A stretch of 64,000 nucleotides of DNA from Bradyrhizobium pachyrhizi (GTDB lineage: Bacteria > Pseudomonadota > Alphaproteobacteria > Rhizobiales > Xanthobacteraceae). Position numbers and translations under genes: made by a program. The notes below the pieces were generated by a model. That model was not told the DNA's origin and made no database searches. It worked only from the letters and a program-made list of their open reading frames with translations. The stretch covers positions 41,184-105,183 of the forward strand of contig NZ_LFIQ01000059.1 in the NCBI RefSeq assembly GCF_001189245.1. The letters run 5' to 3'. Below are positions 20,821-60,574 of the stretch, one piece after another. The stretch's first letter is position 1; each line of letters opens with the position of its first letter.

Positions 20821-20837
20821 CTTACTGGAGGTTGGAT

Positions 20838-21092
20838 ATGACCCAGGATATTGCCCGCACGGAAAAGCAGCTGGGAGCCATATTACGCCGGGCTCGCAAA
20901 CAGGCCGGACTGACGCAGTCCGATCTGGGCAAGCGCATGCACCTGCGCCAGGGAACAGTTTCCCGCCTGGAGGGGGGCGCGCCTGCAATCCAGTTGCGCA
21001 CCCTGATGGAAACCCTGGCGGCCCTTGATCTCGAGTTGGTCATCCGCCCGCGCAGCAAGGCGAGCGCTGCCGACATTGAAAGCGTCTTCTGA
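20838..21092 (+). CDS. hipB: HipB-type antitoxin, XRE helix-turn-helix
   Basis: The 84-residue protein has an XRE helix-turn-helix: LGAILRRARKQAGLTQSDLG, then LRQGTVSRLEGG. The C-terminus contains LMETLAALDLELVIRPRS, a common HipB ending. A GGAGG site lies six bases before the ATG at 20838. Its stop overlaps the ATG of hipA by one base (TGATG), the usual coupling that keeps antitoxin in excess. HipB neutralises HipA and binds the palindrome just upstream to repress both genes. The frame is intact. Confidence 0.93.
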   Translation: MTQDIARTEKQLGAILRRARKQAGLTQSDLGKRMHLRQGTVSRLEGGAPAIQLRTLMETLAALDLELVIRPRSKASAADIESVF

Positions 21093-22417
21093 TGGCCCGT
21101 CCGAGAACAAACGCTCCCTTGCATGTGTTCGTCAACGGACGGTTGGTCGGCACGCTTCGGCGGGAGTCAAGCGGAGCAATCGATTTCCGGTACGATCCGC
21201 AATGGCTGGCCTGGAAAGCCACTTTTCCGATTTCTCTATCGCTGCCCCTTCGGGAGGACCGCTACATCGGCGCGCCGGTCATCAACGTATTCGACAATCT
21301 GCTCCCCGATAGCGAACAGATCCGCAGACGCGTGGCCGAACGTGTTGGGGCGACTGGAATCGATGCCTATAGCATGCTGACCGCGCTCGGGCATGATTGC
21401 GTTGGCGCGCTCCAGTTTCTGCCTGAAGGGATTGATCCAGGTCCGGCCGGGAAGGTCGATGGGAAACCGATCAGTAACGCCGATATTGGCAAGATCATCC
21501 AGAACCTCGCCGCCGCTCCGCTGGGGGTTGGCGAGGATGAGGAATTCAGAATTTCGATTGCGGGCGCGCAGGAGAAAACCGCCTTACTTCGCCGCGATGG
21601 CAAATGGTACAAGCCGGTCGGCACTGCCGCGACCACGCACATTCTTAAGCCGCAAATTGGCCAGCTGCCAAACGGCATAGACCTGTGCAACAGCGTTGAG
21701 AACGAATATTTCTGCCTGAAACTGCTGTCCGGCCTCGGCGTGCCAACTGCCAACGCGGAGATCGGTGACTTCGGGGGACGCCGAACGCTCATCATCGAGC
21801 GATTTGATCGCCGCTGGACAGGCGACGGGCGCTTGCTGCGCCTTCCCCAAGAAGATGTTTGCCAGTCTCTGTCGGTCCCGCCCTCGAGGAAATACCACTC
21901 GGAAGGCGGCCCGGGGATGAAAGAGATTCTGGAGCTACTCAAGGGCAGCGACGCGCCGGCCGAGGATCTGGCGACATTCATGCGCGCAGCCATCGCGTTC
22001 TGGCTTGTTGGAGCAACGGACGGTCACGCCAAGAACTTCAGTGTGTTTCTAAGCCCCGGCGGGCGCTTCCGCCTCGCTCCCCTGTATGACGTGCTCGCCG
22101 CCCAACCGAGCCTGGATGCAAAGCAGATTCAACCCAAGGCGTTCAAGCTCGCGATGTCTGTCGGCAAAAGCCGTCACTATAGAATGAGCGAAATTCAGCC
22201 TCGCCACTTCATCCAGACGGCCGAAATTTCCGGTGTCGGAGCTACCGTCGTCCGTGCAATTTTCGAGTCTCTGGTAGAAAGTTTCGAGCCGGCTTTCGCC
22301 CGGGTTCTTGAAAAGCTTCCGAAGAACTTTCCGTCGGAACTGACGGAGTCGATACGGATCGCTGCTCTGCACCGGATCACCAAGATCAAGGAAGCCAGGT
22401 CCGATGCAGCATCTTGA
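21092..22417 (+). CDS. hipA: HipA-type serine/threonine kinase toxin
   Basis: This full-length 441-residue HipA family kinase starts LHVFVNGRLVGTLRRE and has ISIAGAQEKTALL (the flexible P-loop whose serine is autophosphorylated in E. coli HipA), FWLVGATDGHAKNFS (catalytic loop aspartate) and LAPLYDVLAA (metal-binding aspartate). E. coli HipA phosphorylates glutamyl-tRNA synthetase and causes persistence; the target here is unknown. All key residues are present and the gene is unbroken, unlike the defence genes immediately upstream, so this toxin-antitoxin pair is probably active. It could stabilise the mobile region. Confidence 0.94.
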   Translation: MARPRTNAPLHVFVNGRLVGTLRRESSGAIDFRYDPQWLAWKATFPISLSLPLREDRYIGAPVINVFDNLLPDSEQIRRRVAERVGATGIDAYSMLTALGHDCVGALQFLPEGIDPGPAGKVDGKPISNADIGKIIQNLAAAPLGVGEDEEFRISIAGAQEKTALLRRDGKWYKPVGTAATTHILKPQIGQLPNGIDLCNSVENEYFCLKLLSGLGVPTANAEIGDFGGRRTLIIERFDRRWTGDGRLLRLPQEDVCQSLSVPPSRKYHSEGGPGMKEILELLKGSDAPAEDLATFMRAAIAFWLVGATDGHAKNFSVFLSPGGRFRLAPLYDVLAAQPSLDAKQIQPKAFKLAMSVGKSRHYRMSEIQPRHFIQTAEISGVGATVVRAIFESLVESFEPAFARVLEKLPKNFPSELTESIRIAALHRITKIKEARSDAAS

Positions 22418-27169: not shown

Positions 27170-27953
27170 TCAGGAGATGTCGTCCTTATCTTTGCCCTTG
27201 CGCCGGAGCAAGTCACGATAGCCACCCCGCATGAGACGCAGTCCCATCTGGACCAGACGAATGGTCCGGCTACGCAGATCGTGTGTCTTCCAGCCTCGAC
27301 CCGGAATGCGGTTCATTCCAAACAGGCCTTGCGCGATCTCACGATAGCTGTTCCCTTCCAGCCATCCGTCCACGCCACGCAGAGCGAAGCTATGACGGTG
27401 CCGGCTCGCAATCGATTGAGCAAGAGGGGGCGGTCCGACCGGGCGCTGTTCGAGCGCTAGCCACAATCGATGAGCTGCGCGCAAACGGATGTCGAAGTTG
27501 CGATCTAGCGGCAGGTCGAGGGCAACCAACGAGCCGCTGGGTACGAGTTCTCTCAGCCAAAGACGATGCCTTACTCCGCCGAGTGGCACGATAGCATGCC
27601 ATCCATCTGGAGCCTCACGAAGGTCGTGGCCCACCAGATTGCCGAAATCAAGTTCATAGGTTTTGGAATCTGTCGAGCAGGTCGCCTGGCGGACGGTTAG
27701 GACGGTCGACAGTGCCTCAGGTGCCCAGAAAACAGCTTGGTCGACGAACGCCTTCTGTGGATCAGCCGGGAAACGTCAGTCCCCACTTCCTTCGGAAGGC
27801 GTCCGTCGCGCTGGATTGTTTGCTGCTGACCAGAGTCCTGTAGTCTTTTTGATACTCGCGATCGCGGCGTAGCCACTCCCAGGCTATGTCAACCGCTTCG
27901 GCCGTCTTGATCTCATGGTACGAGTTCTCTGATCTCCAGTCCGCACCTAGCAT
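27170..27953 (-). CDS. fseA: FseA-like ICE excision activator made by +1 frameshifting (copy A)
   Basis: The first frame (ATG at 27953) gives a DUF6499-type domain: LGADWRSENSYHEIKTAEA, then WLRRDREYQ and FRRKWGLTFPG, ending at a TGA (27762). Read +1 after the CCC at 27768-27770, the protein continues ADPQKAFVDQAVFWAPEALS and runs without a break into a DUF2285 domain (DGWHAIVPLGG, LPLDRNFDIRLRAAHRLWLA, GNSYREIAQGLFG). This is the layout of msi172/msi171 of the Mesorhizobium ICE, whose product FseA activates excision and is made by low-level +1 frameshifting. FseA turns on the excisionase gene. Both parts are intact, so the gene may be active. A degraded QseM-like stub lies upstream. Confidence 0.82.
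27762..27773 (-). promoter_or_regulatory. programmed +1 frameshift site, TTT CCC GGC TGA
   Basis: On the minus strand the zero frame reads TTT CCC GGC TGA. Skipping one base after CCC gives GCT GAT CCA, which opens the whole C-terminal domain. A proline CCC codon with a following G can re-pair in the +1 frame (CCG), and the stop two codons later would slow the ribosome. Both are features of known +1 sites. Confidence 0.7.
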
Positions 27954-28547
27954 CGCAACTTTTTCCCTGCACAATTAAATGCACACAAAGGAAACTGCAA
28001 CCTTGTGACGATTTATGGTTGTGCTCTCGCTGTGATCCAGTGTTTGGCGCATTCGCGCGATGAAACGATCGACTTTTTCGATTGGAACGGACTCTGATCT
28101 GTTGCAGACGCTTTCATCTTCACTCTTCGGCGGCCCCCTGCGTAGCCGATCACGCCAGCCGGCGCGTCCTGCCCAGCGATCATACTGTTGCTACTGTTAC
28201 GAGACTCTATGCTGGCGAATTGGGCTTCCCCTACCTGGCTTTGACGGCGACTTGACCCCTCGTTGCTATCCGAACGCCTGATCAACCGAAGATGGCGCGA
28301 TAAAGATAAACCGAACCGTCGCGCAACCGCAGAGCCTCCAGACCGCGGAAAGGATTGCAAGATCAGCGTCGCTCGAGCGGGCATCTTGTGATCGTCTGGC
28401 TTAATCCGAGTTCTTTCCGCACGGCGGCGGCGAGACCCAGCAATTTGAGTTCAAGTCAAGCTACCAAGGCTCTTGATTGATCGAGATGACAGGGGCGTGT
28501 CACCTTCATTGACGAACGTCGGCAGGTCAGGCGCACAAGGAAGCGGC
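27954..28547. other. intergenic region between fseA copy A and the phosphonate cluster
   Basis: Apart from the short QseM-like stub there is no supported gene. A fragment LRDGSVYLYRAIFG reads on the minus strand near 28300 before a stop and looks protein-derived, but I cannot place it. Confidence 0.3.
28084..28190 (-). pseudogene. possible QseM-like C-terminal stub
   Basis: The minus strand reads YDRWAGRAGWRDRLRRGPPK followed by SEDES, which resembles the end of the intact QseM-like protein at 57402 (WMARHGYRHLLRRGWPKSE). Upstream the frame is broken by stops. It lies just upstream of the FseA-like gene, the same relative order as in the other two modules. The similarity is short, so the call is weak. 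Confidence 0.35.
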
Positions 28548-29486
28548 ATGCAAGAACAAGCACCATCTGTCCTCGCCAAAGGCTCTGCTCAATCCGCGGA
28601 TTGCTCATTTGCCGAATTGATGCGCGCCCAGGTCTGCTGCAGCAGCGAACTCTCATTCCTCATGGAAGCGCATGACGGCCTCTCCGCCGCGATCGCTGAG
28701 CGCGCAGGTTTCAAGGGCCTGTGGGCATCTGGTCTGTCGATAGCCTCCTCTCTCGGCTACCGCGACGCCAACGAGGCATCATGGAATCAGCTTGTCGACG
28801 TCGTCGAGCGGATTGTGGAGACCAGCCAACTTCCGGTTCTGGTCGACGGAGATGGCGGCTTCGGCAACTTCAATAACGCTCGCCTGGTGGCGCGCAAACT
28901 CCGTCAGCGTGGCGCTGCGGGTGTCGCGCTGGAAGACAGCTGTTTTCCGAAGACGAATTCATTTGTTGGTGATCGGCATCCCCTCGCCGACATCGATGAA
29001 TTCTCGGGCCGCTTGCGCGCCGTAAAGGACACGGTCGCGGACGATCTCATCCTCGTGGCCCGCATCGAGGCATTAATCGCCGGGCAAGGAATGGACGACG
29101 CAATTTCGCGCGCACACGCTTACGCCGATGCCGGGGCCGATGCGATCCTGATTCATTCGCGCAGGACCGCAGCCGACGAAATCCTCGCGTTCATGCGCGC
29201 CTGGCAAAACAGGCTGCCGGTGGTGATTGTTCCAACGAAATACTATCGGACGCCGGTCTCCGCCTATCGCAAAGCCCGGATTTCTACAGTGATCTGGGCC
29301 AACCACTCCGTGCGAGCAGCAATAGCGGCAATGCGGCAGGTCTGCGGTCGCATCTTCGCTGAGGAAAGCCCTGTGAGCATTGAGCCCAATATCGCAACGC
29401 TCGACGAGCTCTTCGAACTGTTCAAGTACAACGAACTCGCCGAGGCGGAAGCGCGATATCTGCATTCTAGAGACACCCGGCAATAG
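28548..29486 (+). CDS. pepM: phosphoenolpyruvate mutase
   Basis: This 312-residue enzyme of the PEP mutase/isocitrate lyase superfamily would convert phosphoenolpyruvate to phosphonopyruvate, the first step of nearly all phosphonate biosynthesis. Visible active-site features are GLWASGLSIASSLGYRDANE, VDGDGGFGNFNNA (metal-binding aspartates) and LEDSCFPKTNSF. The last block matches the EDKxFPKxNS signature of true mutases, keeping the asparagine but with serine in place of the first lysine. The ATG at 28548 has GGAAG upstream; an earlier in-frame start is less likely. The genes that follow code for a nucleotidyltransferase, a CDP-alcohol transferase and aminotransferases, so the end product is probably a phosphonolipid. 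Confidence 0.9.
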   Translation: MQEQAPSVLAKGSAQSADCSFAELMRAQVCCSSELSFLMEAHDGLSAAIAERAGFKGLWASGLSIASSLGYRDANEASWNQLVDVVERIVETSQLPVLVDGDGGFGNFNNARLVARKLRQRGAAGVALEDSCFPKTNSFVGDRHPLADIDEFSGRLRAVKDTVADDLILVARIEALIAGQGMDDAISRAHAYADAGADAILIHSRRTAADEILAFMRAWQNRLPVVIVPTKYYRTPVSAYRKARISTVIWANHSVRAAIAAMRQVCGRIFAEESPVSIEPNIATLDELFELFKYNELAEAEARYLHSRDTRQ

Positions 29487-29949
29487 CCTCATTCCCGCAT
29501 TCGTGTACATGCTCCGGCCGCCATGCAACCATCTGCTCCACGACAGCATTCCGCTTCACTTTCCGGCGAGGTGCTTTTTAACAGTACTCGTGCTGGAAAC
29601 AGCACCAAACGGCACGAAAGTTCTTACCAGGCTGACCACTGCACCGCTGCGATGCCCCGCGCCGATCCCCTCACCTGGCGGAACAACCTACTGAGATCTA
29701 CGAGCGCACTGAACCGGCCGATAGGGACGATATTTCGTCCCTGTTGAATGCGGGGTCCTCTGAAAGATCTCCCTAGGCGTCACGCCGCACTCGCGAGTTC
29801 CTGCAGTATCTTAATCGACGGAGAGCGCTCATGGCCGGGTTTGCCAGCGTCCATTGTCGTCTCTAGCTCGGACGGCCCGGATATTGCGTGTCGAATTCGC
29901 GACGGCTTGGAACAAAGACGAGATATCCCCCGACAATGAAGCGGCTCAA
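29487..29949. other. gap inside the phosphonate cluster
   Basis: 463 bases with no supported gene. It is long for an operon spacer, so the nucleotidyltransferase gene may have its own promoter. No phosphonopyruvate decarboxylase fragment is recognisable. Confidence 0.3.
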
Positions 29950-30741
29950 ATGGCTATCAATGCACCCAAGAAAGCCGTGATCCTCGCCGCCGGCGTCGGC
30001 TCTCGCCTTCGACCGCTGACGGATCTACGGCCGAAGCCCTTGGTCGAGGTCAACGGCATGCCGATCCTCCACAATGCTCTGCGCAACTTGGAAGCCGTTG
30101 GCGTCGAAGAGGTGACGCTCGTGGTCGGTTACCGCAAGGATGCTATTCAATACGCGTGCGGTCGCCGCTTCGGTACGCTTGGGATCAACTATGTGGATTC
30201 GCAGGCCTTCGACCGTACCGGCAGCGCCTATTCGCTCTGGCTCGCGCGCGACGCGCTGCTTTCCGGGGACTGCTTTCTCCTCGAGGGCGACGTCTTCTTC
30301 GAGGAGGATGCGCTACGTTATCTGCTGCTCAGCCAGGCGAGCAACGTGGCTGCAATCGCTCCCTTCGATGAATTGATGGAAGGGTCGGCAGTTCTGTTGT
30401 CGGATAGCGGCCTCATCTCGGAGTTCCGCATGAAGCAAAGCGGGGCGAACCTGGCCACGAATGGGCCAAGGCTTTTCAAGACAATGAACCTGTTACGATT
30501 TTCGGCACCGACTCTCCAGGCGACGATCGTTCCAGCGCTGGACGAGATCATCGGGTCCGGAGTGACCCAGGCCTACACAGAGGAGCTTCTTTCTTATCTT
30601 GTTGAACTGCGTGGCCTGCAGCTGGCAACGGCGCGATGCGATCACCTCAGGTGGTATGAAATCGACACTCCTGAAGATCTGCACATCGCAGAGCGCATTT
30701 TCAGAGGAGCGCAGCGCCAAAGCACGACTCGAAGACGGTGA
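29950..30741 (+). CDS. NTP transferase, probable phosphonate cytidylyltransferase (PntC-like)
   Basis: This 263-residue nucleotidyltransferase has the front motif AVILAAGVGSRLRPLTDLRP with the KPL lysine. It then has DRTGSAYSLWLARDALLSGD and FLLEGDVFFEEDAL, a pattern shared by LicC-type choline-phosphate and PntC-type aminoethylphosphonate cytidylyltransferases. It would activate a phosphonate as its CMP ester. I use the ATG at 29950, where the conserved strand begins; the ribosome site is weak. The next gene starts six bases after its stop and is a CDP-alcohol transferase, which is what a CMP-phosphonate would feed. The substrate (aminoethylphosphonate, phosphonoalanine or another) is inferred only. 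Confidence 0.8.
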   Translation: MAINAPKKAVILAAGVGSRLRPLTDLRPKPLVEVNGMPILHNALRNLEAVGVEEVTLVVGYRKDAIQYACGRRFGTLGINYVDSQAFDRTGSAYSLWLARDALLSGDCFLLEGDVFFEEDALRYLLLSQASNVAAIAPFDELMEGSAVLLSDSGLISEFRMKQSGANLATNGPRLFKTMNLLRFSAPTLQATIVPALDEIIGSGVTQAYTEELLSYLVELRGLQLATARCDHLRWYEIDTPEDLHIAERIFRGAQRQSTTRRR

Positions 30742-30747
30742 AGTCCA

Positions 30748-31356
30748 ATGCTCAAATATCTCTGGGATCCAGCGAATGCCATAACAACCGGGGGCCTTCT
30801 TTTTTCGTCCGCCAGTCTGTTTCTTGCTCTTTCAGGTCGTCTTGAGCTGTCGATAGCCGCAGCCCTTTGGGCCGTCCTATGCGATCACCTGGACGGGATC
30901 GTGGCAGCTCGCACAAGGCATCGCCATCCAGATGTTGCAAAGATGGGAAAGAGCCTCGACGGGTTCGCTGACATTATTTACGGAGCCGTTTTGCCCGCCG
31001 CAATTGTAATCCAGCTCAGCCGCTCCTCCATTCTTGCCTTGATAACTGCAACCGCCTTGCTCACAGCAGGGGCAATCAGGCTCAGCTACTTTGTGAACTT
31101 CGGCAAGTCAGCCGATGGGCGTTTCCTGGGGGTTCCGCTATCGTATGATGTTCCGATAATGGCAGCTGTTTTTGTTGTTCGACCGCTGTTTCCAAGTGAC
31201 CTATTCGTAACTCTAACGCTCAGCATCTTTCTCGTACTTGCCGGACTGCATGTTTCATCTATCCGGGTGCCATCGCCGAGCCCGGCCATGTATGCCGCGA
31301 TCACCGTCTTCGCCATAGTCGCTTCGACCGTCCTCGCATTGAGGCCTTTCGATTAG
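30748..31356 (+). CDS. CDP-alcohol phosphatidyltransferase family enzyme
   Basis: This 202-residue membrane enzyme contains the complete family motif DGxxAR-G-DxxxD, seen as HLDGIVAARTRHR, then GKSLDGFADIIYG. About six hydrophobic helices follow. Family members displace CMP from a CDP-alcohol and join two alcohols through a phosphodiester. Here, next to PEP mutase and a cytidylyltransferase, it would move a phosphonate head group from CMP to diacylglycerol or another lipid alcohol. It starts six bases after the upstream gene, so the two are co-transcribed. It is close in size to ordinary phospholipid synthases, so an unrelated lipid role cannot be excluded. Confidence 0.85.
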   Translation: MLKYLWDPANAITTGGLLFSSASLFLALSGRLELSIAAALWAVLCDHLDGIVAARTRHRHPDVAKMGKSLDGFADIIYGAVLPAAIVIQLSRSSILALITATALLTAGAIRLSYFVNFGKSADGRFLGVPLSYDVPIMAAVFVVRPLFPSDLFVTLTLSIFLVLAGLHVSSIRVPSPSPAMYAAITVFAIVASTVLALRPFD

Positions 31357-31416
31357 ACCGGTCCGAGCACGAGGCATAGAGACGCAAGCTTCGCAGAACC
31401 AAGGAGCGCCTTAACT

Positions 31417-31509
31417 ATGCGCATCGTCGCAGTTCACGAGACTCCGGCGGATAAAATGGCGAAGTTGCTGACCGCGCTCGCCGCACGATCGCCGATGGCA
31501 CGGCGGTAG
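31417..31509 (+). pseudogene. possible N-terminal stub of an enolase-superfamily gene
   Basis: A 30-codon frame starts MRIVAVHETP, identical in style to the first residues of many mandelate racemase/muconate lactonizing enzymes, and has AAGGAG upstream of its ATG. The sequence then diverges (DKMAKLLTALAARS) and stops at 31507. Nothing else of the enzyme is present. It may be a deletion remnant or a chance match. Confidence 0.25.
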
Positions 31510-31567
31510 CCAGCTCGCTCACGGGGCGAATCAAGTCTCGGCAGCTTCTTATTCGTTATGGGCAAAG

Positions 31568-32485
31568 ATGGATTCGACGGCACAATTTGCATATCTCAAC
31601 GGCCAAATCGTTCGCTGGAACGATGCCAAGGTGCATGTATTCGCACCGGTGGCAAAGTATGGCATAGGTATTTTCGAAGGAATACGCGGCTATTGGAATG
31701 AAGAGGCGCAGCAAATGTACCTCTTTCGTCTCGCAGAGCACCTTGATCGGTTTGCGTTCTCGCAAAAGGCGATGCGGTTCGATCAGGGGCCATCGCGGGA
31801 AGAGTTGACAAAGGCCGTCGTTGGCTTGTGTCGCGCAAATGCGTTTCGTGCAACCGTGCATATCCGGATGATGGCTTTCATCGACGGACCTGGCGAGATA
31901 GGAGCAACGGGACCCATAGGAACCGCGATCACGGCGCTCCCACGGCAGTCCGCGCAGCAATCCATCAAAGGCGCTTCTGCTCAGATTAGCTCCTGGATGC
32001 GCATGCCCGACAATGTGATGCCCGCGCGCATCAAGTGCAACGCAAACTATCATAACGCTCGATTGGCAACCATGCAGGCCCAGCGGGACGGTTACGATGT
32101 CGCTTTCCTGCTCAATTCAAGAGGAAAGCTGGCCGAGGCCCCAGCGATGTGCATCTTCATCGTCCGCGAGGGTCAACTGGTTACGCCGAGCGGGACCAAC
32201 GACATTTTGGAGTCGATTACGCGCCAGACCGTCATCGAATTGGCAGGCAGATACCTCGGGCTAAAGACGGCCGAGCGCGATGTCGATCGGACTGAACTGA
32301 TTCTCGCCGAGGAAGTGTTCCACTGCGGCACCGGCGCTGAAATTGTGCCGGTGACGTCTGTAGACCGTATACCTGTGGGGAACGGTCGACCTGGAGCGGT
32401 AACGCAACAGCTGATCGAGATTTACCGGGCCGTTGTTAGCGGCAAAGATGGCGCGTATCCCTCATGGCGGACTCCGGTCTTTTGA
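31568..32485 (+). CDS. branched-chain-aminotransferase-like PLP enzyme (class IV), copy 1
   Basis: This 305-residue fold-type IV aminotransferase has FAPVAKYGIGIFEGIRGYWN, the catalytic lysine block ARIKCNANYHNARLATMQAQ, and the late FHCGTGAEIVPVTSVD block, all typical of IlvE. It would use PLP to exchange amino groups between an amino acid and a 2-oxo acid. In this cluster the 2-oxo acid could be phosphonopyruvate, giving phosphonoalanine, since no decarboxylase is present; ordinary branched-chain amino acid metabolism is the alternative. It shares close to the whole chain layout with the copy at 32927, which points the other way. Confidence 0.88.
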   Translation: MDSTAQFAYLNGQIVRWNDAKVHVFAPVAKYGIGIFEGIRGYWNEEAQQMYLFRLAEHLDRFAFSQKAMRFDQGPSREELTKAVVGLCRANAFRATVHIRMMAFIDGPGEIGATGPIGTAITALPRQSAQQSIKGASAQISSWMRMPDNVMPARIKCNANYHNARLATMQAQRDGYDVAFLLNSRGKLAEAPAMCIFIVREGQLVTPSGTNDILESITRQTVIELAGRYLGLKTAERDVDRTELILAEEVFHCGTGAEIVPVTSVDRIPVGNGRPGAVTQQLIEIYRAVVSGKDGAYPSWRTPVF

Positions 32486-32926: not shown

Positions 32927-33847
32927 TTAAACATCCACGGGCGTGAGCCAATTGAGCCAGAGATTTGTGCGCCCGTGGACAAGATCGAAGTAGGCTGCTT
33001 GTAATGCTCTCACCACAGGCCCGGCCTTCCCGTCGCCCACTGGGAGGCGGTCGATGCCGAGAATCGGCGTCACTTCCGCTCCCGTCCCCACCAGGAAGGC
33101 CTCATCGGCCGCATAAAGTTCGGAGCGGTTAACAACCCGCTGCTCCATCGGCAGGCCGAGGCTTTCGCGCGCGAGCTTGAGGATGGTATCGCGGGTGATA
33201 CTTTCAAGCACGTCTTCGCAGAGCGGCGGCGTCACCACTACGCCATTGCGGACGATGAAAGGCGTTGACGTGGGGGCCTCGGCCAAATTGCCCTGCTCGT
33301 TTAGCAGCAGGGCCTGCTGGTAGCCGTCTGCAAGGGCCTGCATGTGAGCCAATCGCGAGTTGTGGTAGTTGGCGTTAGCCTTGATGCGGGCTGGCATGGC
33401 CCGGTCGGGAATCCGCACCCAAGAGCTCACCTGGGCCTGGACACCGTCGATCACCGCACTGGGTACCGGCCGAGCCAGCGCCGTGATAGCGGTGCCGATC
33501 GGCCCCGTCACTGTCATGTCTCCCTGACCGTCCAGGTAACTCATGATCCGGATGTGGGTGCTCTCGCGGTACCCGCAGGCCTTGAGCAGATCTGCGGTCT
33601 GCTTTGTCAGCTCCTCGGCCGTGAAGGGGGTGTCGAAGCGTACAGCCTTGTGACTGTAGGCCAGGCGCCGCAGGTGGTCCTCCATCCGGAACAGGAGGAG
33701 ACGGCCCTGCTGCTCGCTCCAGTAGGCCCGCACCCCCTCAAAAACTCCGAGGCCGTATTTCGCAGCCGGGCTGAAGATATGCATTGTGGCCTCCGGCCAG
33801 GACACGATCCTTCCGTTCAGCGATGCGTATGGCGCAGGCAGGCTCAT
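32927..33847 (-). CDS. branched-chain-aminotransferase-like PLP enzyme (class IV), copy 2
   Basis: This 306-residue relative of the gene at 31568 has FSPAAKYGLGVFEGVRAYWS, the lysine block ARIKANANYHNSRLAHMQAL and FLVGTGAEVTPILGIDRLPV. It is intact. It converges with copy 1 and diverges from the class I/II aminotransferase at 34221, so it has its own promoter in the 33848-34220 gap. The pair looks like divergent paralogues rather than a recent duplication, because many core positions differ. Its base composition is more GC-rich than that of copy 1, which suggests a different history. The substrate is unknown. Confidence 0.88.
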   Translation of the reverse strand: MSLPAPYASLNGRIVSWPEATMHIFSPAAKYGLGVFEGVRAYWSEQQGRLLLFRMEDHLRRLAYSHKAVRFDTPFTAEELTKQTADLLKACGYRESTHIRIMSYLDGQGDMTVTGPIGTAITALARPVPSAVIDGVQAQVSSWVRIPDRAMPARIKANANYHNSRLAHMQALADGYQQALLLNEQGNLAEAPTSTPFIVRNGVVVTPPLCEDVLESITRDTILKLARESLGLPMEQRVVNRSELYAADEAFLVGTGAEVTPILGIDRLPVGDGKAGPVVRALQAAYFDLVHGRTNLWLNWLTPVDV

Positions 33848-36671: not shown

Positions 36672-37895
36672 TCACGGTCCCCTGGGACCGGGCTCTTCCG
36701 GATCCACCTGATCGGGAAGGACAGGCTCTTCGCCGAACGGACGGTTGATGATGCCGAGCGCTTCGGTAGCGGCATACACGCGGTTGCGCGAGTAACCGGT
36801 ACGTTCTTCCAGAATTCCTGCCTCGTCCAGTTGAGCGATCGCTTGGTGGACCTGCGGAGGACTGATGTCCAGAAGTTCGCCGAGCCTTTTGGCCGTCACG
36901 ACCGGATAGTTGTGAAGCTCCTCGAGCGCGCGCGCGGCCGCGGATCCCTTGCGGAATTTGCGGCGCCTCCTCCACAAATCGGATAATTCGGACAACGCCT
37001 CACGCGTCCGAATGAGTTCTTCGACCGTGCCGGTTACGGCGTCAGCCATGAAGGTGATGATCGGCTGCCAATCCAACCGCTGTTGGGCATCCTTGAGCGA
37101 AGCATAGTATGTATCCTTTTTGCTCTCGATATAGGGAGAGAGGTACAACGGGACGTGCTTCTCGGCCGCCATCATCAGTGGAAGGAGGAGACGGCCGACG
37201 CGGCCGTTGCCGTCGCGGAAGGGATGCACCGCCTCGAAATGAGTGTGCGCAATCGCCATGCGCGTGATGAATCCTTGAGTCATCTGCTGCATTCCCTCGT
37301 TCCGCAGAAAGTCAACGGTTTGAGCGAGGCAGTCGTGAACCTCCGTAGGAGGCGGAGGGTTCAAGGTCGAATATGCAATGTCCTTGTTTCCGCCAATCCA
37401 CACTACGCGCGTGCGGAGGTCGCCGGGAACGTCCTTGTAGTCCGGATCGTCCTTCATCACGGCTCGGTGGAGATCCTTGATCAGATCCATCGTGAAGACG
37501 CCGTACCCGTCCTTCGCCGCAAGCGGAATGAATCCATCGAGCGCCACGGCGTAGTTTCTCACCTGACGCGCTTCGTCCCTGGCGCCATCGTCGCCCGTCT
37601 CCTCAACGAAGAGAAGTTCGTCGAGAGTGCTCTGCGTACCCTCGATCCAAGAGGAACTGACCGCCTCGCGTCTGGTCAGCACGCGGCTGACGATGTAGAG
37701 GTCCTTCATCTGGGCGGCGATGGCATCGACCTTGCCGAATGCCGCTTGAGCGGCCTCCAAGGCTTTTGTGGCCCCAGGGGCGAAGATACCGCCCTCCGGA
37801 GGTGCCGGCGGCACGATTCCGTAGTGGGAATCGTACGGCGGCGGCAGCCGCTTTAGGGTCTCCCGGATCGTATGGCTGAGATCGCTGCGCTTCAT
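36672..37895 (-). CDS. Fic family protein (probable AMPylase) with built-in inhibitory motif and C-terminal winged helix
   Basis: This 407-residue Fic enzyme would transfer AMP from ATP to hydroxyl groups of target proteins. The catalytic motif is complete: HPFRDGNGRVGRLLLPL. An inhibitory helix motif of the S/TxxxE type, SSSWIEGTQST, lies before the Fic core near residue 80, as in class II Fic proteins that keep themselves inactive. The last 80 residues form a winged-helix module (VVTAKRLGELLDISPPQVHQ, then AIAQLDEAGILEERTGYSRN). This is a common stand-alone chromosomal Fic type of about 370-410 residues. No antitoxin gene is needed or present. Confidence 0.92.
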   Translation of the reverse strand: MKRSDLSHTIRETLKRLPPPYDSHYGIVPPAPPEGGIFAPGATKALEAAQAAFGKVDAIAAQMKDLYIVSRVLTRREAVSSSWIEGTQSTLDELLFVEETGDDGARDEARQVRNYAVALDGFIPLAAKDGYGVFTMDLIKDLHRAVMKDDPDYKDVPGDLRTRVVWIGGNKDIAYSTLNPPPPTEVHDCLAQTVDFLRNEGMQQMTQGFITRMAIAHTHFEAVHPFRDGNGRVGRLLLPLMMAAEKHVPLYLSPYIESKKDTYYASLKDAQQRLDWQPIITFMADAVTGTVEELIRTREALSELSDLWRRRRKFRKGSAAARALEELHNYPVVTAKRLGELLDISPPQVHQAIAQLDEAGILEERTGYSRNRVYAATEALGIINRPFGEEPVLPDQVDPEEPGPRGP

Positions 37896-51062: not shown

Positions 51063-51935
51063 GTGTTTCCTGCCAAGCGCCTGCGCACCTGCATGGCCGA
51101 GACTGGCCTCGTCCACGTCATGGCCGCGCATAGCCCGCTTTCTGCAGTTCTCGCAGAAGAAGCCGGATTTGATGGCCTATGGGCCTCCGGATTCGAGCTG
51201 TCGGCACTTTACGGCCTGCCGGACATGAGCCTGATCTCGATGACGCAGCATCTCGACATGCTGCGGGCGATCGCGGGACGCACGAGATTGCCAATTGTCG
51301 CCGACATCGATACGGGCTACGGCAATGCGATCAACGTGATCCATGCGATCGGCGAGTACGAACGCGCCGGCGCTAGCGCCGTTGTCATCGAGGACAAGAC
51401 TTTTCCGAAGGTGACGAGCCTTGTTGCCGATGGACGTCAGGAATTGTTGCGGATTGAAGAGTTCCAAGGGAAAACCGAGGCCGCCGTTACGGCAAGACGG
51501 GACCCGGACTTTCTCATCATTGCCCGCACTGAAGCCTTAATTGCAGGACTCGGCGAAGCTGAAGCTCTGCGTAGAGCGCAAGCCTATGTAGAGGCTGGCG
51601 CCGACATGATCCTGATCCATTCGAAAAAGAAAGATACTTCTGAGATCGAAAGCTTTTCGCGCGCCTGGACCGGATCGGTGCCGCTGGTCATTGTGCCGAA
51701 TGCCTACCCGGATCTCGATGCGAAGCGCGTCAAAGCGCTCGGCAATATCCGCATGATGATCTACGGCAACTACGGCATCCGAGCTGCGGCAACTTGCATG
51801 CAGGAGACATTCCGCCGGATTATCGTCGACGGCGGAGTCCAGAACGTCCATAAGGACATTCTGCCAGTGGACGAGATTTTCAGACTTCAGAAGATACACG
51901 AGGTTAGGGCGGCTGAAGCTCGCTTCCTTCGCTGA
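51063..51935 (+). CDS. phosphonopyruvate-hydrolase-like enzyme (PEP mutase superfamily)
   Basis: This is a 290-residue enzyme, the length I recall for phosphonopyruvate hydrolase. It has FDGLWASGFELSALYGLPDM, ADIDTGYGNAIN (metal aspartates) and IEDKTFPKVTSLVADG. In this gating loop true mutases carry asparagine where this protein has threonine, a difference reported between mutase and hydrolase. It would cleave phosphonopyruvate to pyruvate and phosphate. The start is the GTG at 51063 with AAGGA upstream; ATG 51093 is less well placed. It forms an operon with the aminotransferase, and a truncated copy of its 3' part lies at 54427. Confidence 0.82.
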   Translation: MFPAKRLRTCMAETGLVHVMAAHSPLSAVLAEEAGFDGLWASGFELSALYGLPDMSLISMTQHLDMLRAIAGRTRLPIVADIDTGYGNAINVIHAIGEYERAGASAVVIEDKTFPKVTSLVADGRQELLRIEEFQGKTEAAVTARRDPDFLIIARTEALIAGLGEAEALRRAQAYVEAGADMILIHSKKKDTSEIESFSRAWTGSVPLVIVPNAYPDLDAKRVKALGNIRMMIYGNYGIRAAATCMQETFRRIIVDGGVQNVHKDILPVDEIFRLQKIHEVRAAEARFLR

Positions 51936-52360
51936 ACGCTTCGCGGCGCGCCATGCGGGGCGCAAGCTGAGCGCCCGAAGCATACCCTCATTTGGATTTT
52001 CGGCATTGCCCCTTGCGCCAAGGAAGAAGGATGGAAGACCTGACACACACCGCCGGATTGCCTCACCTGGCAAGAGGACTCAGGTCGCGGCGCCGTGGTG
52101 AAAGGAGAATCGAGATAACGAACGATCGTACGGGCGATAAAGAGCCGAAGCGCAACAAACTCCGGCCAGAATTCCCAATTCCGACTCGAGTCCGCAACTA
52201 CTCACGCGCGACACCTCTGTGCGCTCGGCATGTCGTCGGCGATCTTTTGTCAATGGGGACCACCAAAGATGTACAAGCTCGCACTCTATCACTGCAAGTG
52301 CATTTCACCATAATGACCTCAGATTGCCTGACACTCAGACCAGCCTAGGGAGCAAGAATA
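51936..52360. other. intergenic region, no gene
   Basis: 425 bases, no supported gene. Confidence 0.35.
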
Positions 52361-54231: not shown

Positions 54232-54426
54232 GGAAGCAGCGACCTCATGCGTTGGCTTGTCCCGTGCTCGCCTCGAACTATTCAGCGAGGAACGGACTGC
54301 TCTTGTATCTAAACCGCTCCATGGCTTCTCAAACGGGCTCCAGTCTGGCCTTCGAGACCAACTTGTTGCGCCAAAGTCTGCAATAAATGGCGGGTCTCGA
54401 TCCGCAGGGCCTGCTCGGGCCCCCGC

Positions 54427-54940
54427 CTTGTTGCCGATGGACGTCAGGAATTGTTGCGGATTGAGGAATTCCAAGGGAAGATCGAGGCGGCCGTTGTGAA
54501 ACGGGACCCGGACTTTCTCATGATTGCCGGCACCGAAGCCGTGATAGCAGGACTCGACGAACCAGAAGCACTGCGTCGGCGCGCAAGCCTATGTAGAGGC
54601 TAGCGCGGACATGATACTGATCCATTCGAAAAAACGGATCTTTGCGAGGTCGCAAGCTTTGCACGTGCTTGGACGGAATCGACGCCGCTGGTCATCGTGC
54701 CGACGCCTACCTGGATTTTAACGCCGAGCGGCTCAAGGCGCTGCGCAACGTCCAAATGAATGAAATACGGTAACTACCGCATCCGGGCTTTTGCCACTGC
54801 CGTACAGGAGACCCTCCGCCGGATCGTAGCAGACGGCGGGGTCCAATACGTGGGCAAGGACACTCTACCGCTCGAGGAAATCTTCAAACTTCAAAGGATG
54901 GATGAGGTCAAGGTAGCCGGAGCTTGCTTCCCCCGCTGAC
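54427..54940 (+). pseudogene. truncated second copy of the phosphonopyruvate-hydrolase-like gene
   Basis: The sequence from about 54427 closely matches the 3' 60 percent of the gene at 51063, starting in the middle of LVADGRQELLRIEEFQGK. It continues DPDFLMIAGTEAVIAGLDEP, then runs through several indels to LPLEEIFKLQRMDEV near the end. The 5' part, with the metal-binding aspartates, is absent. It arose by a partial duplication whose left edge lies at 54426. It cannot make an active enzyme. Confidence 0.85.
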
Positions 54941-55280
54941 CTCTTCGCAACGAACAAGACGTTGAAACTATACCTATAGCGCTCGACACCCGCTCAGACG
55001 CCATCCTCACGCCGTTAGGAAAGTCTGAGCAGCGGCCTATCACTCTAGCAAGTCGCGCACGTCCGACGCGAGGACGGTGATCGCACCGCGCGAATTAGTA
55101 CCTAGAAAAATTGCGCGCCAAACCGTACGAAACGCACCAAAATTGCGGATTTTGCGCGCGAAACCCGCTTGATAAGCGGCAATCCTGACGTACGCATCGA
55201 ATAATGTGATACAGCATCCATGCTTGGCAACGGCCTGCCGCGGCAAGTAGCCAACAGTCCAAGAGCTACCGGAGCAGAAG
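54941..55280. other. intergenic region upstream of lysR
   Basis: 340 bases, no supported gene. Contains the LysR promoter. Confidence 0.35.
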
Positions 55281-56447: not shown

Positions 56448-57234
56448 TTAGGACTTATCGTACTTGCCTTTGCGCTTGTGACGGAGCAATGCGCGATAAC
56501 CGCCACGGATGAGACGCAGCCCCTTCTTGACCAGGCGAATGATCCGGCTGCGAACATCGCTTGTTTTCCATCCTCGATCGGGAATGCGATGCGCGCCGAA
56601 CAGGCCTGCCGCGATTTCGCGATAGCTGTTTCCTTGCAGCCATCCATCTGCGGCACGCAGTGCAAGGATAAGCCGATGCTTGGTCTGGATCGGCAGAGCA
56701 CGTGGGGAAGGGCCGAGGGGGCGCTGTTCGAGCGCTCGCCAAAAGCGCTGTGCCGCCTGCGAACGAATGTCGAAATCGCGGTCGAGCGGGAGATCGACGA
56801 CAATCACTGAGCGTCTCGATGGCAGTTCTCTCAGCCAGAGGCGGTGCTTCGCGCCTCCGAGCGGCACGATGGCATGCCATCCATCTGGCGCCCGACGAAG
56901 CTCGCTGCCCGTTAGTTTGCCGAGATCCAACTTGTACCGTCTGGACGACCTCAAACCGATAGCTGGGTGGACGGGCAACACGGTCGACAACGCTTCGGGC
57001 GCCCAGAAAATGGCCTGTTTGTCGAACGCCGTTCGCGGATCTGGGGCGAAACGAAAGCCCCCACTTCCTTCGGAAGCGGTCCGTCGTCGCGTCGGATCGT
57101 TCGCTGCTGGTCAGGACCTGATAATCTCTTTCATACTCGAGGTCGCGACGCAGACATTCCCAGGCAATGTCCTCCGTTTCTACCGTCTTGGCGTCAGGAT
57201 ACGCTTGCTTTGATCTCCAGTCAGCGGCTGCCAT
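56448..57234 (-). CDS. fseA: FseA-like ICE activator, copy B, with frameshift site but no zero-frame stop
   Basis: The first frame starts at the ATG at 57234 (GGGGAAGAAAAG upstream) and gives the DUF6499 part: ADWRSKQAYPDAKTVETEDI, then RFRRKWGLSFRP. Reading +1 after the CCC at 57043-57045 continues DPRTAFDKQAIFWAPEALST and runs into an intact DUF2285 part (DGWHAIVPLGGAKHRLWLRE, LPLDRDFDIRSQAAQRFWRA, GNSYREIAAGLFGAHRIPDR), ending at 56448. Unlike copy A, the zero frame has no stop here and stays open almost to the end, giving a different, probably meaningless tail. If frameshifting works, a full FseA is made. The intact QseM-like gene lies 168 bases upstream. Confidence 0.75.
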
Positions 57235-57401: not shown

Positions 57402-57677
57402 CTATTCACTCTTCGGCCAACCGCGTCGCAGGAGATGACGATAGCCGTGACGCGCCATCCATTTGGCGCGAGCCAAGTGAGTGTCGAAAGCACGACGCGC
57501 GCGATCCTGCTCAAGGACCGGATCAACACCGAGCACAATGCGCGCGACTTCGCGCCAATCTGCATTATCCGCCTGTGCATCGAGAAGGCGCAGATAGGTA
57601 ACGACGTGCTGCTCATCATATGGCGTAAGCTCAGGCGCGCTGGGCGCCACATCTGCGATCTTAGGATCGGCCGACAC
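57402..57677 (-). CDS. qseM: QseM-like antiactivator, DUF2285-type small protein
   Basis: This 91-residue protein reads LTPYDEQHVVTYLRLLDAQA, ADWREVARIVLGVDPVLEQD and WMARHGYRHLLRRGWPKSE, matching the small DUF2285-like antiactivator family. In the Mesorhizobium symbiosis ICE, QseM binds FseA and TraR and blocks excision and transfer in most cells. It starts with a GTG at 57677 with AGGAGTTCC upstream. It lies upstream of fseA copy B on the same strand, and two degraded relatives lie at 58061 and 59918. The frame is intact, so it is the best candidate for a working antiactivator. Confidence 0.72.
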   Translation of the reverse strand: MSADPKIADVAPSAPELTPYDEQHVVTYLRLLDAQADNADWREVARIVLGVDPVLEQDRARRAFDTHLARAKWMARHGYRHLLRRGWPKSE

Positions 57678-57772: not shown

Positions 57773-58042
57773 CTACAAAATGTTTCCCCGCAGAAACATC
57801 AATTGGAGGCGGCCATCGGATATCTGGGGCCTCGTTCCGTCGCTTGTCTCGATTTCGCTCGTTCCGAACTGCGCCGGTGTCGATTTGACCGCGTCCATAA
57901 TCGCTTGGAGCGCGATGAGCAGATTTGCGTCCTGCAAGCCCTTGCTCGCTCGTTGCCCAAGTAGAAATCGACGTGTGTGGTTTGGCTGACGCACCTGTTG
58001 CCTCAATGATGGCTGCTCGGTTCGGTCGGTTGGCGAGAACAT
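57773..58042 (-). CDS. possible small hypothetical protein between QseM-like genes
   Basis: A minus-strand frame of about 89 codons has a protein-like stretch RFLLGQRASKGLQDANLLIA followed by LQAIMDAVKSTPAQFGTSEI. I do not recognise it. Another frame in the same direction is also open here, so the choice is uncertain. It could be a cargo gene inserted between the two QseM-like copies. Confidence 0.3.
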   Translation of the reverse strand: MFSPTDRTEQPSLRQQVRQPNHTRRFLLGQRASKGLQDANLLIALQAIMDAVKSTPAQFGTSEIETSDGTRPQISDGRLQLMFLRGNIL

Positions 58043-58060
58043 TGTTCTCGATTTCGGACT

Positions 58061-58301
58061 CCACGTGAGAAAGTTTGCTGTTTGGTCGCGCCGCCCTGAA
58101 GAAAGCCGCGGAAATTCCGGTTAGCCATGCATTTTGCGGCCGCCAAATGGATGACGAACGGTTCGCGAGCGCGCACTGGCCGAGATCTGGATCGATATGC
58201 AGCACGTTTCGATCAACCTCTTTCCAGTCGGCGTCGGCGGCTTCCGGATCGAGAAGTCGCCGGCAGGTCACCAGATGCGACGCGCCACGGCGCAACGGCA
58301 C
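58061..58301 (-). pseudogene. degenerate QseM-like copy beside qseC
   Basis: The reading aligns over its full length with the intact QseM-like protein: HLVTCRRLLDPEAADADWKE, then NVLHIDPDLGQCALAN, but most later positions have changed and the normal end is lost. It is divergent from the QseC-like gene at 58465 with about 160 bases between them, the arrangement of qseM and qseC in the Mesorhizobium ICE. It is colinear without frameshift, so some function is not excluded. Confidence 0.55.
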
Positions 58302-58412
58302 TGAACTATCGAACCAGGATCAGCGACGGTTCAGTGGTGGGGTCCGGACGATTCTTATGCGCGCGCAGCAGAGCGACGCAGTTCCGGTTCACAACGAGCG
58401 TGAGACGTCATT

Positions 58413-58444
58413 TTGTCAAGTATATCGAGGTGCAGTATATCGAG
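58413..58444 (+). promoter_or_regulatory. promoter and paired operator of qseC copy 1
   Basis: TTGTCA (58413-58418) and TATATC (58436-58441) are separated by 17 bases. Two direct repeats AGTATATCGAG lie at 58419-58429 and 58434-58444, one in the spacer and one over the -10 box, which fits binding of the helix-turn-helix protein encoded just downstream. The distance from the -10 box to the ATG is only 23 bases and no ribosome site is seen, so the leader is very short. Confidence 0.65.
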
Positions 58445-58464
58445 CAAGCGGCATCCTTTCCCGC

Positions 58465-58689
58465 ATGGACTTGCGGGAGATATTCGCCACCAACTTGCGC
58501 CGTCTGCGCAATGCGAAAGGATGGTCCCAAGACGAGCTTGCCTTCGAGGCCAAGATAAGCCGGGGCTATTTAAGCCTGCTCGAAAAGGGCGAGCACTACG
58601 TCAGTATCAAAATCATAGGTCAACTTGCCGAGAAGCTCGAGGTTGAGCCTGCTGAGTTCCTCAAACGGCCCGCAAAGAGCGGCCGCTAG
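58465..58689 (+). CDS. qseC: QseC-like XRE regulator, copy 1
   Basis: The 74-residue helix-turn-helix protein reads MDLREIFATNLRRLRNAKGW, SQDELAFEAKISRGYLSLLE and LAEKLEVEPAEFLKRP. It is a minimal XRE domain of the size and type of QseC, which in the Mesorhizobium ICE represses or activates the qseM promoter and makes the excision decision bistable. It lies divergent from a QseM-like remnant. The ATG at 58465 has no Shine-Dalgarno sequence, and the predicted transcript start is very close, so translation may be nearly leaderless. It is very close in sequence to copy 2. Confidence 0.78.
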   Translation: MDLREIFATNLRRLRNAKGWSQDELAFEAKISRGYLSLLEKGEHYVSIKIIGQLAEKLEVEPAEFLKRPAKSGR

Positions 58690-59066
58690 GTAGGCACAGC
58701 CCAATACACGTCTTACCCTAATCCATTTTCTGGTCTCTTCCGTAACCTTTGAAAGCTGCTCTAAGAGATTTCCAGCGGTCCCCGCGATGGTTCTGATCGA
58801 ACGTGCTCGGGTCACTACGGTCAACCGCCAATGGAGAGCTTGACGCCTATGGTCAGTGTTGTCGAGGTCGCGCGCCGACATGATATTCACTCTATCCTGC
58901 GAGCCGCCGTTCATATGGTCACAACGGGATCCCTCAGGTTCCTGCTTTCCTGGCCCGAACTGCTCTGCTTGGAGACCCCGAACCGGTGAATTTGGCCATG
59001 GCATTCCGATGCTAGCCCGCATCCAAACTGGCCGAAACTTCAGCACGACGAGGATTGGTGAGGAGC
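58690..59066. other. region between the two ICE control modules
   Basis: No gene seen. The first bases after the qseC stop resemble those after qseC copy 2, which supports a tandem duplication. Confidence 0.35.
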
Positions 59067-59708
59067 TCAGGAAGCGTCGTACTTCTCGTTGCCCTTGCGA
59101 CGGAGCAATACGCGATAGCCGCCCCGGATGAGACGCAGCCCCCTTCCGGATCAGGCGGATGATCCGGCTGCGTAGATTCGGTCCGATGGCGCGATGTTCG
59201 AACGCCAATCAAAATCTGCGTGCTGCCTGCACACGAATGTCGAAATAGCGCTCGAGAGGCAGGTCCACGGCAACCAATGAGCCGCCGGGGGGAAGATCTT
59301 TTAGCCAAAGGCGATGCTTCGCTCCTCCGAGCGGCACGATGGCATGCCATCCGTCTTGCGTCGCATGACGAAGCTCGCTGCCCGCCAGCTTGCTGAAATT
59401 CAAGTCGTACCCTTTGGACGCCATCGAACAGACGGCGGCGTGGACGGGCAACACGGTCGACAGCGCCCTCAGGCGCCCAGAAAATGGCTTGCTTGTCGAA
59501 CGTCTTTTGCGGATCAGCTGGAAAACGTCAGCCCCCACTTCCGTCGGAAGTGATCCGACGTCGCGCTGGATTGTTCGCTGCGGACCAAGGCCCCAAAATC
59601 TTGTGGATACTCGCGATCCCGGCGTAGCCACTCCCAAGCTATGTCCGCTGCTTCAGCTTTCCTGATCTCATAGTATGTGCTCTCTGATCTCCAGTCGGCA
59701 CTTGGCAT
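59067..59708 (-). pseudogene. FseA-like ICE activator, copy C, degenerate
   Basis: The first part from the ATG at 59708 is intact (MPSADWRSESTYYEIRKAEA, then FRRKWGLTFSS) and ends in a TGA at 59514, as in copy A. Here, however, the slip codon CCC has become TCC. In the +1 frame the protein continues ADPQKTFDKQAIFWAPEG but meets an extra G near 59468. The DUF2285 part then resumes (DGWHAIVPLGGAKHRLWLKD), loses about 60 codons after RVQAARRF, and meets another extra G before the normal ending LLRRKGNEKYDAS at 59067. It is a pseudogene of the copy B type. Confidence 0.8.
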
Positions 59709-59917
59709 CGTACTTTTTCCTGCATGTTCTTGATGCACACACAGCATTTGGTTACAGTCCATATCGTTCGGAGAGATCAGCAGCAGCCTCGCCATCCAAT
59801 TAGCGTCTGCTTCCTTTGCGCCTCACGGAAGAGATGGCCGCGTGCGCTTTGGCGGACAAAGTCGTGCGTGCTCGCTCATCGATGATTGCCTTCGCGGCCC
59901 AGCCGGCTGGTGTGAAC

Positions 59918-60124
59918 TTAGTTCTCAATTTCGAAATCTAAGTGGCCAATTTTTCCTATTTGGTCGCGGCGCCGCGAAGCAAGTCGCGTTAATCTCGGGA
60001 GGCCATCCATTTTACCCCGCATTACGAACGGTTCACGAGCTGACGCGCGATCAGGATCGATGTAGAGCACGATCCGAGCAACCTCTTTCCCTTGGCTTCC
60101 GCGCCAGGACCGCCAATACGTCAC
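59918..60124 (-). pseudogene. degenerate QseM-like copy of the second module
   Basis: The reading KEVARIVLYIDPDRASAREP aligns with the intact QseM (WREVARIVLGVDPVLEQDRA) and continues colinearly but weakly to about 59960. The N-terminal part is missing or out of frame. It lies upstream of fseA copy C and divergent from qseC copy 2, so it completes the second, degraded control module. Confidence 0.55.
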
Positions 60125-60258
60125 CAGATGCCGCTCGCCATAGGCGCTGAACTAGCCAGAGCAGGATCAGCGACGATCAAGTGGTGGGGTCCGGATAACC
60201 TTACGCATGCGCACCAGATTGGAGCAGTTTCCGTTCACAACGTGCATGAGATGGCATT

Positions 60259-60290
60259 TTGTCAAGTATATCGAGGTGTCGTATATTGAG
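60259..60290 (+). promoter_or_regulatory. promoter and paired operator of qseC copy 2
   Basis: TTGTCA (60259-60264) and TATATT (60282-60287) are 17 bases apart. Repeats AGTATATCGAG (60265-60275) and CGTATATTGAG (60280-60290) lie at the same positions as in copy 1, with three changes in the second repeat. The sequence between the -10 box and the ATG is the same as in copy 1. Confidence 0.65.
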
Positions 60291-60310
60291 CAAGCGGCAT
60301 CCTTTCCCGC

Positions 60311-60535
60311 ATGGACTTGCGGGAAATATTCGCCACCAATTTGCGCCGCCTGCGCAATGCGAGGAGATGGTCGCAAGACGAGCTTGCCTTCAAGGCCAAG
60401 ATAAGCCGGGGCTATTTGAGCCAGCTTGAAAAGGGCGCGTACTACGTCAGCATAAAGATAATAGGTCGTCTTGCCGACAAGCTCGAGGTTGAGCCTGACG
60501 AGTTCCTGAAGCGGCCCTCTAAGAGAGGCCACTAG
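60311..60535 (+). CDS. qseC: QseC-like XRE regulator, copy 2
   Basis: This 74-residue paralogue of the gene at 58465 has the helix-turn-helix block SQDELAFKAKISRGYLSQLE and the same ending LEVEPDEFLKRPSKRGH. It differs at only about ten positions, several in the second half of the domain. It is intact although its module partners (fseA copy C and the QseM-like remnant) are dead. It could still bind the operators of both modules and so interfere with, or back up, copy 1. Like copy 1 it has no visible ribosome site. Confidence 0.78.
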   Translation: MDLREIFATNLRRLRNARRWSQDELAFKAKISRGYLSQLEKGAYYVSIKIIGRLADKLEVEPDEFLKRPSKRGH

Positions 60536-60574
60536 GCAGGCATAGCCCCAATGCACGTCTTACACCCAATTTTT

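Follow-up and report, generated by a model that had tools for sequence, protein, structure and literature searches.

Reading frames and domains of copy A

The window, which is the whole 64 kb stretch of DNA analysed, contains a gene that is, as read from its sequence, a member of the FseA family needing a +1 shift for its expression. This gene, named copy A, is apparently functional and is more probably than otherwise the protein that activates transfer of a symbiosis element in Bradyrhizobium, working like FseA of Mesorhizobium. The window is positions 41184–105183 of contig C103 in an 8.7 Mb draft genome composed of 124 contigs. Copy A is composed of two parts in two frames.

27170–27953, minus strand: copy A, whole gene, from the ATG at 27953 to a final stop that ends at 27170
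27762–27953, minus strand: zero-frame part of copy A, Msi172-like, with DUF6499 (PF20109, AWEWLRRD), closed by TGA at 27764–27762
27170–27769, minus strand: +1-frame part of copy A, Msi171-like, with the middle region and DUF2285 (PF10074), 199 codons open

The junction reads TGG GGA CTG ACG TTT CCC GGC TGA TCC on the minus strand, with TTT at 27773–27771, CCC at 27770–27768, GGC at 27767–27765 and the zero-frame TGA at 27764–27762. The zero-frame part alone (27953–27765) matches the Pfam profile PF20109 (E 6.8e-21) and the +1 part alone matches PF10074 (E 6e-28). At the sequence level the two halves are linked solely by a +1 skip, and with one base skipped they form a single continuous protein of 260 aa in which both PF20109 and PF10074 exceed their curated cut-offs. 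The AWEWLRRD motif of the N-terminal DUF6499 corresponds to the AWEFLRRN-like motif of the FseA family. The first-pass annotation had described an FseA-like gene at 27170–27953 whose zero frame ends two codons after CCC, in CCC GGC TGA, and in which a one-base skip opens a continuous DUF2285 frame, and the reading frames, both domain matches and the fused protein bear out this description.

Other fseA copies and qseM genes

DUF6499 occurs at five places in the whole genome: copies A, B and C in the window, a copy on C14 and another, broken, on C61. The further copies in the window and the qseM-like sequences near them are as follows.

28119–28178, minus strand: qseM-like C-terminus remnant upstream of copy A, 20 aa with 60% identity to the QseM of copy B (E 0.010)
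56448–57234, minus strand: second fseA gene of the window (copy B), complete apart from the +1 shift; its fused reading matches both PF20109 and PF10074, and UUU C is kept
57405–57677, minus strand: intact qseM-like gene adjoining copy B, DUF2285 only (PF10074, E 7e-12)
58075–58280, minus strand: broken qseM-like remnant, two short tblastn pieces (E 3.7e-9)
59063–59708 (about), minus strand: copy C of fseA, with more frame breaks 3' of the shift site
60035–60151, minus strand: remains of a broken qseM-like gene 5' of copy C (tblastn E 2.95e-6)

Copy B encodes AGA at the position of the zero-frame TGA of copy A, and AGA or GGA replaces this TGA throughout copy B and its subclade (L026, L048, L082, L083, L086). 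The junction stop of the zero frame is gone from these genes and the unshifted frame continues, which in copy B gives a 298-aa ORF from an upstream TTG. The fseA copies on C61 and C71 are broken, as are several qseM-like genes. The window also features two direct repeats, one of approximately 0.7 kb and 77% identity (58003–58741 and 59879–60587) that contains broken qseM-like sequence and one of approximately 0.5 kb and 78% identity (51418–51944 and 54425–54948).

The intact qseM antiactivator that adjoins fseA in the R7A-type cassette is present beside copy B and is represented by the remnant beside copy A, where the match is weak alone and is backed by its position and alignment. Since the adjacent qseM has decayed, any antiactivation of copy A would have to be supplied by a qseM elsewhere, such as that next to copy B. 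FseA itself is not defined by having qseM as a neighbour.

Distribution of the two-frame gene

A protein scan identified 77 relatives, 69 of them in Bradyrhizobium, and a contig of B. macuxiense BR 10355 also carries fseA. Merging of identical junctions gave 103 junction rows, and removal of the spurious zero-frame rows L131, L147 and L190 left 100, with 98 distinct junctions. The pattern gave no junction row for 49 loci, of which the 33 from the class and phylum samples were inspected, along with L172, and then re-examined by profile; the other 16 are mostly Bradyrhizobium. The class and phylum sample is independent of the slip-site pattern. Its draws contain at least 48 DUF6499 loci, 47 of them with the DUF6499 profile, and six of these 47 are without a paired DUF2285. 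Among the paired loci listed, 35/41 need a +1 shift (three of the 35 being Bradyrhizobium), 6/41 are single-frame and none needs the other shift. Relatives encoded in one continuous frame, which the first-pass annotation had named as evidence against frameshifting, therefore exist as the minority of six among the 41 paired loci listed. Because the same split recurs in the class and phylum samples and within the genus, and because both parts are under purifying selection, the split of copy A is neither a chance occurrence nor a sequencing error.

Selection on copy A

The dN/dS of the zero-frame part of copy A is 0.27 against L017 and 0.38 against L018, its nearest relatives, and that of the +1 part is 0.19 and 0.21 respectively. 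With L018 as outgroup, the changes in the +1 part on the copy A branch itself are 14 nonsynonymous against 27 synonymous (a further 19 and 12 are ambiguous), and in the short zero-frame part there are four of each (a further five and one are ambiguous). Copy A violates 0/16 and 1/30 of the strongly conserved columns. By these substitution patterns, copy A is under purifying selection. It is unlikely that copy A is a decaying, functionless leftover of a lost ICE, as might be read from the broken copy C, the broken copies on C61 and C71, the several broken qseM-like genes, the remnant state of its own qseM and a window without an ICE core; against this stand the selection on the branch of copy A, its nearly unviolated conserved columns and the similar neighbours, namely GH18 or PEP-mutase genes, found beside fseA in several other genomes.

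Phylogenetic position and gene neighbourhood

A tree of 93 proteins, in which the joins among long, distant branches are unsafe, places copy A in a Bradyrhizobium clade of 50 rows (support 100/99). Within the six-row subclade of copy A (100/97) there is no qseM match at E 1e-3, copy A keeping the 20-aa remnant, and the other 44 clade rows have a qseM match that is partial in three. An rdfS gene on the same strand within 2.5 kb is found in 0/40 clade rows whose downstream sequence is long enough (the other 10 are cut off too early). The sister rows L108, L061–L065 and L180 do have rdfS beside them, as does almost every member of the C14 group. The nodA gene of the source genome is located on C96. 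A clade member lies 77–238 kb from nodA in 8/8 large-contig genomes, all of which were picked for carrying the clade; in a genome of 9 Mb, the 240 kb on each side of nodA together make up about 5%. The genes of G005 and G002 are outside the tree, have junctions that duplicate others and best match clade rows, at 98% and 93% over the longer part.

The GH18 gene lies about 100 bases downstream of copy A, and PEP-mutase genes are near fseA in L080, L087, L111 and L020. Regulation of nearby genes such as GH18, rather than of rdfS, is an improbable role for copy A. The GH18 gene occupies the position that rdfS has in other cassettes, GH18 sequence is also found near fseA in L017, L018 and L019, and the clade is without an adjoining rdfS, but sites resembling the FseA box are at chance level in the window (7 found against 5.4 expected) and the spacer 5' of the GH18 gene did not align with L017.

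Several other genes of the window were given predicted functions. The run at 28473–32485 encodes PEP mutase, nucleotidyltransferase, CDP-alcohol phosphatidyltransferase and class IV aminotransferase domains; it suggests a phosphonate or phosphonolipid pathway, and other Bradyrhizobium loci also have parts of it close to fseA. The class IV aminotransferase genes at 31568–32485 and 32927–33847 are related to each other and lie on opposite strands. At 20832–22417, a small ORF that is helix-turn-helix-like by eye overlaps a gene with a HipA domain, resembling a hipBA pair, and the gene at 36672–37895 encodes a Fic-domain protein with a Fic_N domain.

The predicted frameshift and its probable slip site

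Junctions were aligned gap-free from the conserved Trp-Gly (WG-x-x-TTT), giving 98 distinct stretches of 120 bases. Two elements of the junction are conserved.

27770–27773, minus strand: proposed slip site UUU C (tRNA-Phe UUU to UUC), TTT in 95/98 distinct sites
27781–27785, minus strand: SD-like UGGGG, 7 bases 5' of UUU, TGGGG in 50/50 clade rows

Among the 62 copy-A-like stretches, variation in the codons just 5' of TTT is greatest at the third base of the zero frame, variation in the codons 3' of TTT is greatest at the third base of the +1 frame, and TTT itself is invariant in 61. This pattern bears on the possibility that the two frames encode two separate proteins with no frameshifting, for which there is little likelihood. 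The Azorhizobium homologues rihF1b and rihF1a are stated to be separate proteins in an excerpt of PMC9601964, and an ORF of 154 aa that begins with GTG at 27634 spans DUF2285; however, coding constraint in the +1 frame begins at the base after UUU, approximately 45 codons before this GTG, and FseA of R7A is described as a single frameshifted protein in the available text of PMC10359603.

A single frameshifted product is thus the preferred reading, and the slip probably takes place one codon earlier than CCC, with tRNA-Phe moving from UUU to UUC after the SD-like UGGGG. The base after the TTT position is C in 64, T in 33 and A in one of the 98 distinct junctions (C or T in 97/98), the codon there is CGC in 59, TCC in 28 and CCC in three, and TGA is found three codons past TTT in 79. 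Elsewhere in the fseA genes TTT is the minority codon for Phe (21/127 in the zero-frame part, 218/595 in the +1 part), and it accounts for 155/451 Phe codons of the long ORFs of the window. TTT-C is present at the junction of 34/35 +1-type loci among the class and phylum loci listed, L181 having TGT-C; the sites of L163, L186, L188 and L197 were read directly from the junction sequences. An in-frame TTT-C is found in only L196 of the six one-frame class and phylum loci listed, with the junction of L198 being unreadable.

Skipping a base at UUU (to UUC) or at CCC (to CCG) gives the identical polypeptide FPADP in copy A, so neither copy A alone nor the mass of its junction peptide can separate the two slip codons. 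The clade separates them, as a slip at TTT gives A (22) or P (28) as the first +1 residue across its 50 rows. The 11 class and phylum rows give no separation between TTT and the next codon, and the first-residue argument therefore rests on Bradyrhizobium. The slip at CCC that the first-pass annotation had proposed, with CCC followed by G and good re-pairing possible in principle, is very improbable, given that CCC follows UUU in so few sites, that the conserved element is UUU then C or U, and that, across the 50 clade rows, slipping at this position would put R, S, C or P there.

Junction conservation likewise disfavours a slip at GGC. The zero-frame UGA is absent from copy B of the window and from most of the distant homologues shown, and on these comparisons it is dispensable for the family junction. 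RNA folding around the site gave a z of -1.5, with 14/200 shuffles folding as well, and no clear extra signal. No earlier statement of UUU as the slip codon of FseA was found in the literature searched, which left out the 2015 PNAS report.

Comparison with known systems

Copy A resembles FseA (Msi172-Msi171) of ICEMlSymR7A from Mesorhizobium japonicum in that DUF6499 and DUF2285 are encoded in different frames, with a +1 shift to connect them. The available text of PMC10359603 notes for FseA a UGGGGG that encodes WGL, and copy A has its SD-like UGGGG at the same WGL. The R7A fseA gene (traI2-msi172-msi171) is in another operon than rdfS-traF-msi107 according to an excerpt of PMC5882170; the fseA of copy A is also apart from the rdfS operon, and both have a context that bears nod genes. 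Unlike the described part of the R7A system, copy A has no adjoining traI, its qseM is decayed and three copies, one of them broken, are present in one window.

The qseM-fseA-rdfS cassettes of other proteobacterial elements, for example that on C14, share with copy A a two-frame fseA with UUU-C. In the C14-type cassette an FseA box precedes rdfS, whose start is approximately 0.8 kb downstream of the DUF6499 motif, whereas neither rdfS nor a box adjoins fseA in the copy A clade. The Yersinia protein RovC, the namesake of PF10074, has this domain family in common with copy A by Pfam; the sequence match of copy A to the solved RovC reaches only E 0.43.

The motif UUU_CGN is a reported +1 motif of influenza PA-X (PMC3498833, in part) and of plant amalgaviruses, for which a slip of tRNA-Phe from UUU to UUC has been proposed (PMC5052127, in part). 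Copy A is similar in having UUU then C and in the proposed movement of tRNA-Phe, and it differs in that the viral genes are unrelated and are read by eukaryotic ribosomes. The codon after UUU is CCC in copy A, not CGN, and CGC in 59/98 of the homologous sites. The influenza PA-X and amalgavirus sites are not known to have an SD-like element. Bacterial RF2 (prfB), as presented in an excerpt of PMC5009743, shares with copy A an internal Shine-Dalgarno stimulator and a +1 slip near UGA. Unlike copy A, RF2 slips at CUU directly before its UGA; in copy A the UGA follows two codons later, and relatives often lack it.

FseA box, rdfS and transfer genes

The 64 kb contain no match to rdfS, traF, rlxS, trb, traI or traR, and a tRNA scan identified no tRNA gene in the window or in L014. 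The window thus holds regulator copies and no ICE core. The rdfS, relaxase and trb genes of the source genome are on C14, C71, C47 and C59, with two rlxS-trb clusters (C47, C59), traI and traR genes on C47 and broken traI/traR pieces on C61. Gene names repA, msi107, traG, trbB, trbE and trbI are presumed from ORF order by eye. The first-pass annotation had suggested that the region belongs to or derives from an ICE and that rdfS be sought outside the window; rdfS was found on C14 and C71, and the ICE proposal stands as far as the linkage of the clade to nod genes in relatives and the R7A-like transfer genes of the genome are concerned, and does not extend to an ICE core in the window.

The sequence GCCGAA-N16-TTCGGC, located 5' of rdfS on C14, is very likely the FseA box, since the available text of PMC10359603 describes this box as a pair of inverted hexamers with 16 bp between them. 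A strict form precedes 27/57 distinct rdfS upstream stretches and is absent from the window. The source genome has the pattern in two places. The C14 box follows an intact qseM-like gene and fseA and precedes rdfS and traF, and the C71 box follows a broken fseA and precedes intact rdfS and traF; the intact fseA on C14 could serve both. A looser form of the box has 16 occurrences in 12 of 16 genomes, most of which were picked for the clade, and the reversed control pattern has none over the same genomes. All 16 places are followed by rdfS; three have no adjoining fseA match (G004, G108 and one of the two in G010) and five have fragments only. The C14-like fseA of L211 (G056, near C1:1769690), which adjoins its box, has a junction read in one frame; it is contained in one tblastn piece with an open frame of 281 aa and is possibly a one-frame fusion among two-frame relatives.

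G108, a single contig, has two DUF6499 genes found, both of the copy A clade, and its sole box is approximately 0.62 Mb from both. This box precedes rdfS, traF, rlxS, traG and trbB, has no adjoining fseA match and has repA nearby in two pieces. G004 resembles G108 (0.48–0.52 Mb), except that it carries a third DUF6499 gene, which is distant and in one frame, and further DUF6499 genes are present in several other genomes as well. The layout of G108 suggests that FseA of the clade acts in trans on the rdfS operon. A gene directly before such a box in G103 is 57–60% identical to copy A against 39–48% to the C14 copy, which suggests that relatives of copy A read the same box. An excerpt of PMC9174649 gives sizes of 0.33 to 0.77 Mb for symICEs of Bradyrhizobium, and the distances between the clade genes and the box could therefore fit one element. 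Copy A, nodA and the FseA boxes are on separate contigs of the draft, and their membership in a single element is so far an inference.

Proposed role and significance

Under the proposed mechanism, tRNA-Phe would slip from UUU to UUC after a pause at the SD-like sequence, a minority of ribosomes would complete full-length FseA and the rest would stop at UGA. FseA would then bind the FseA box 5' of a distant rdfS operon and so start excision and transfer. Candidate targets in the source genome are the boxes on C71, where the neighbouring fseA is broken, and on C14. Action of the clade FseA in trans on a distant rdfS is put forward as a hypothesis.

A broader and more doubtful proposal, to which we give well under even weight, is that the symbiosis elements of Bradyrhizobium have a split switch, with a frameshift-gated FseA retained close to the nod genes and its one target, an FseA box with the rdfS operon, reached in trans over a distance of hundreds of kilobases. 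The lineage of copy A would have shed its adjoining antiactivator and that of copy B its zero-frame stop, and the slip would be the tRNA-Phe UUU-Y slip of influenza PA-X, reached independently. If this were true, the ribosomes on copy B would mostly make the long alternate product, which is about the same length as FseA.

The FseA family is already known, and copy A adds a Bradyrhizobium member. No paper featuring both DUF2285 and Bradyrhizobium was found in the literature searched, and the Bradyrhizobium symICE papers searched contain neither fseA nor rdfS. What is added to the family is a better-supported slip codon than CCC and a clade located in the Bradyrhizobium symbiosis region, at a distance from the site on which it likely acts. 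Two-frame genes of this sort will be split or overlooked by annotation pipelines. Symbiosis elements move nodulation genes between Bradyrhizobium strains and their on-switch is unnamed in the literature searched; the present analysis points to probable activator genes, to their probable targets and to a single exact codon for the shift.
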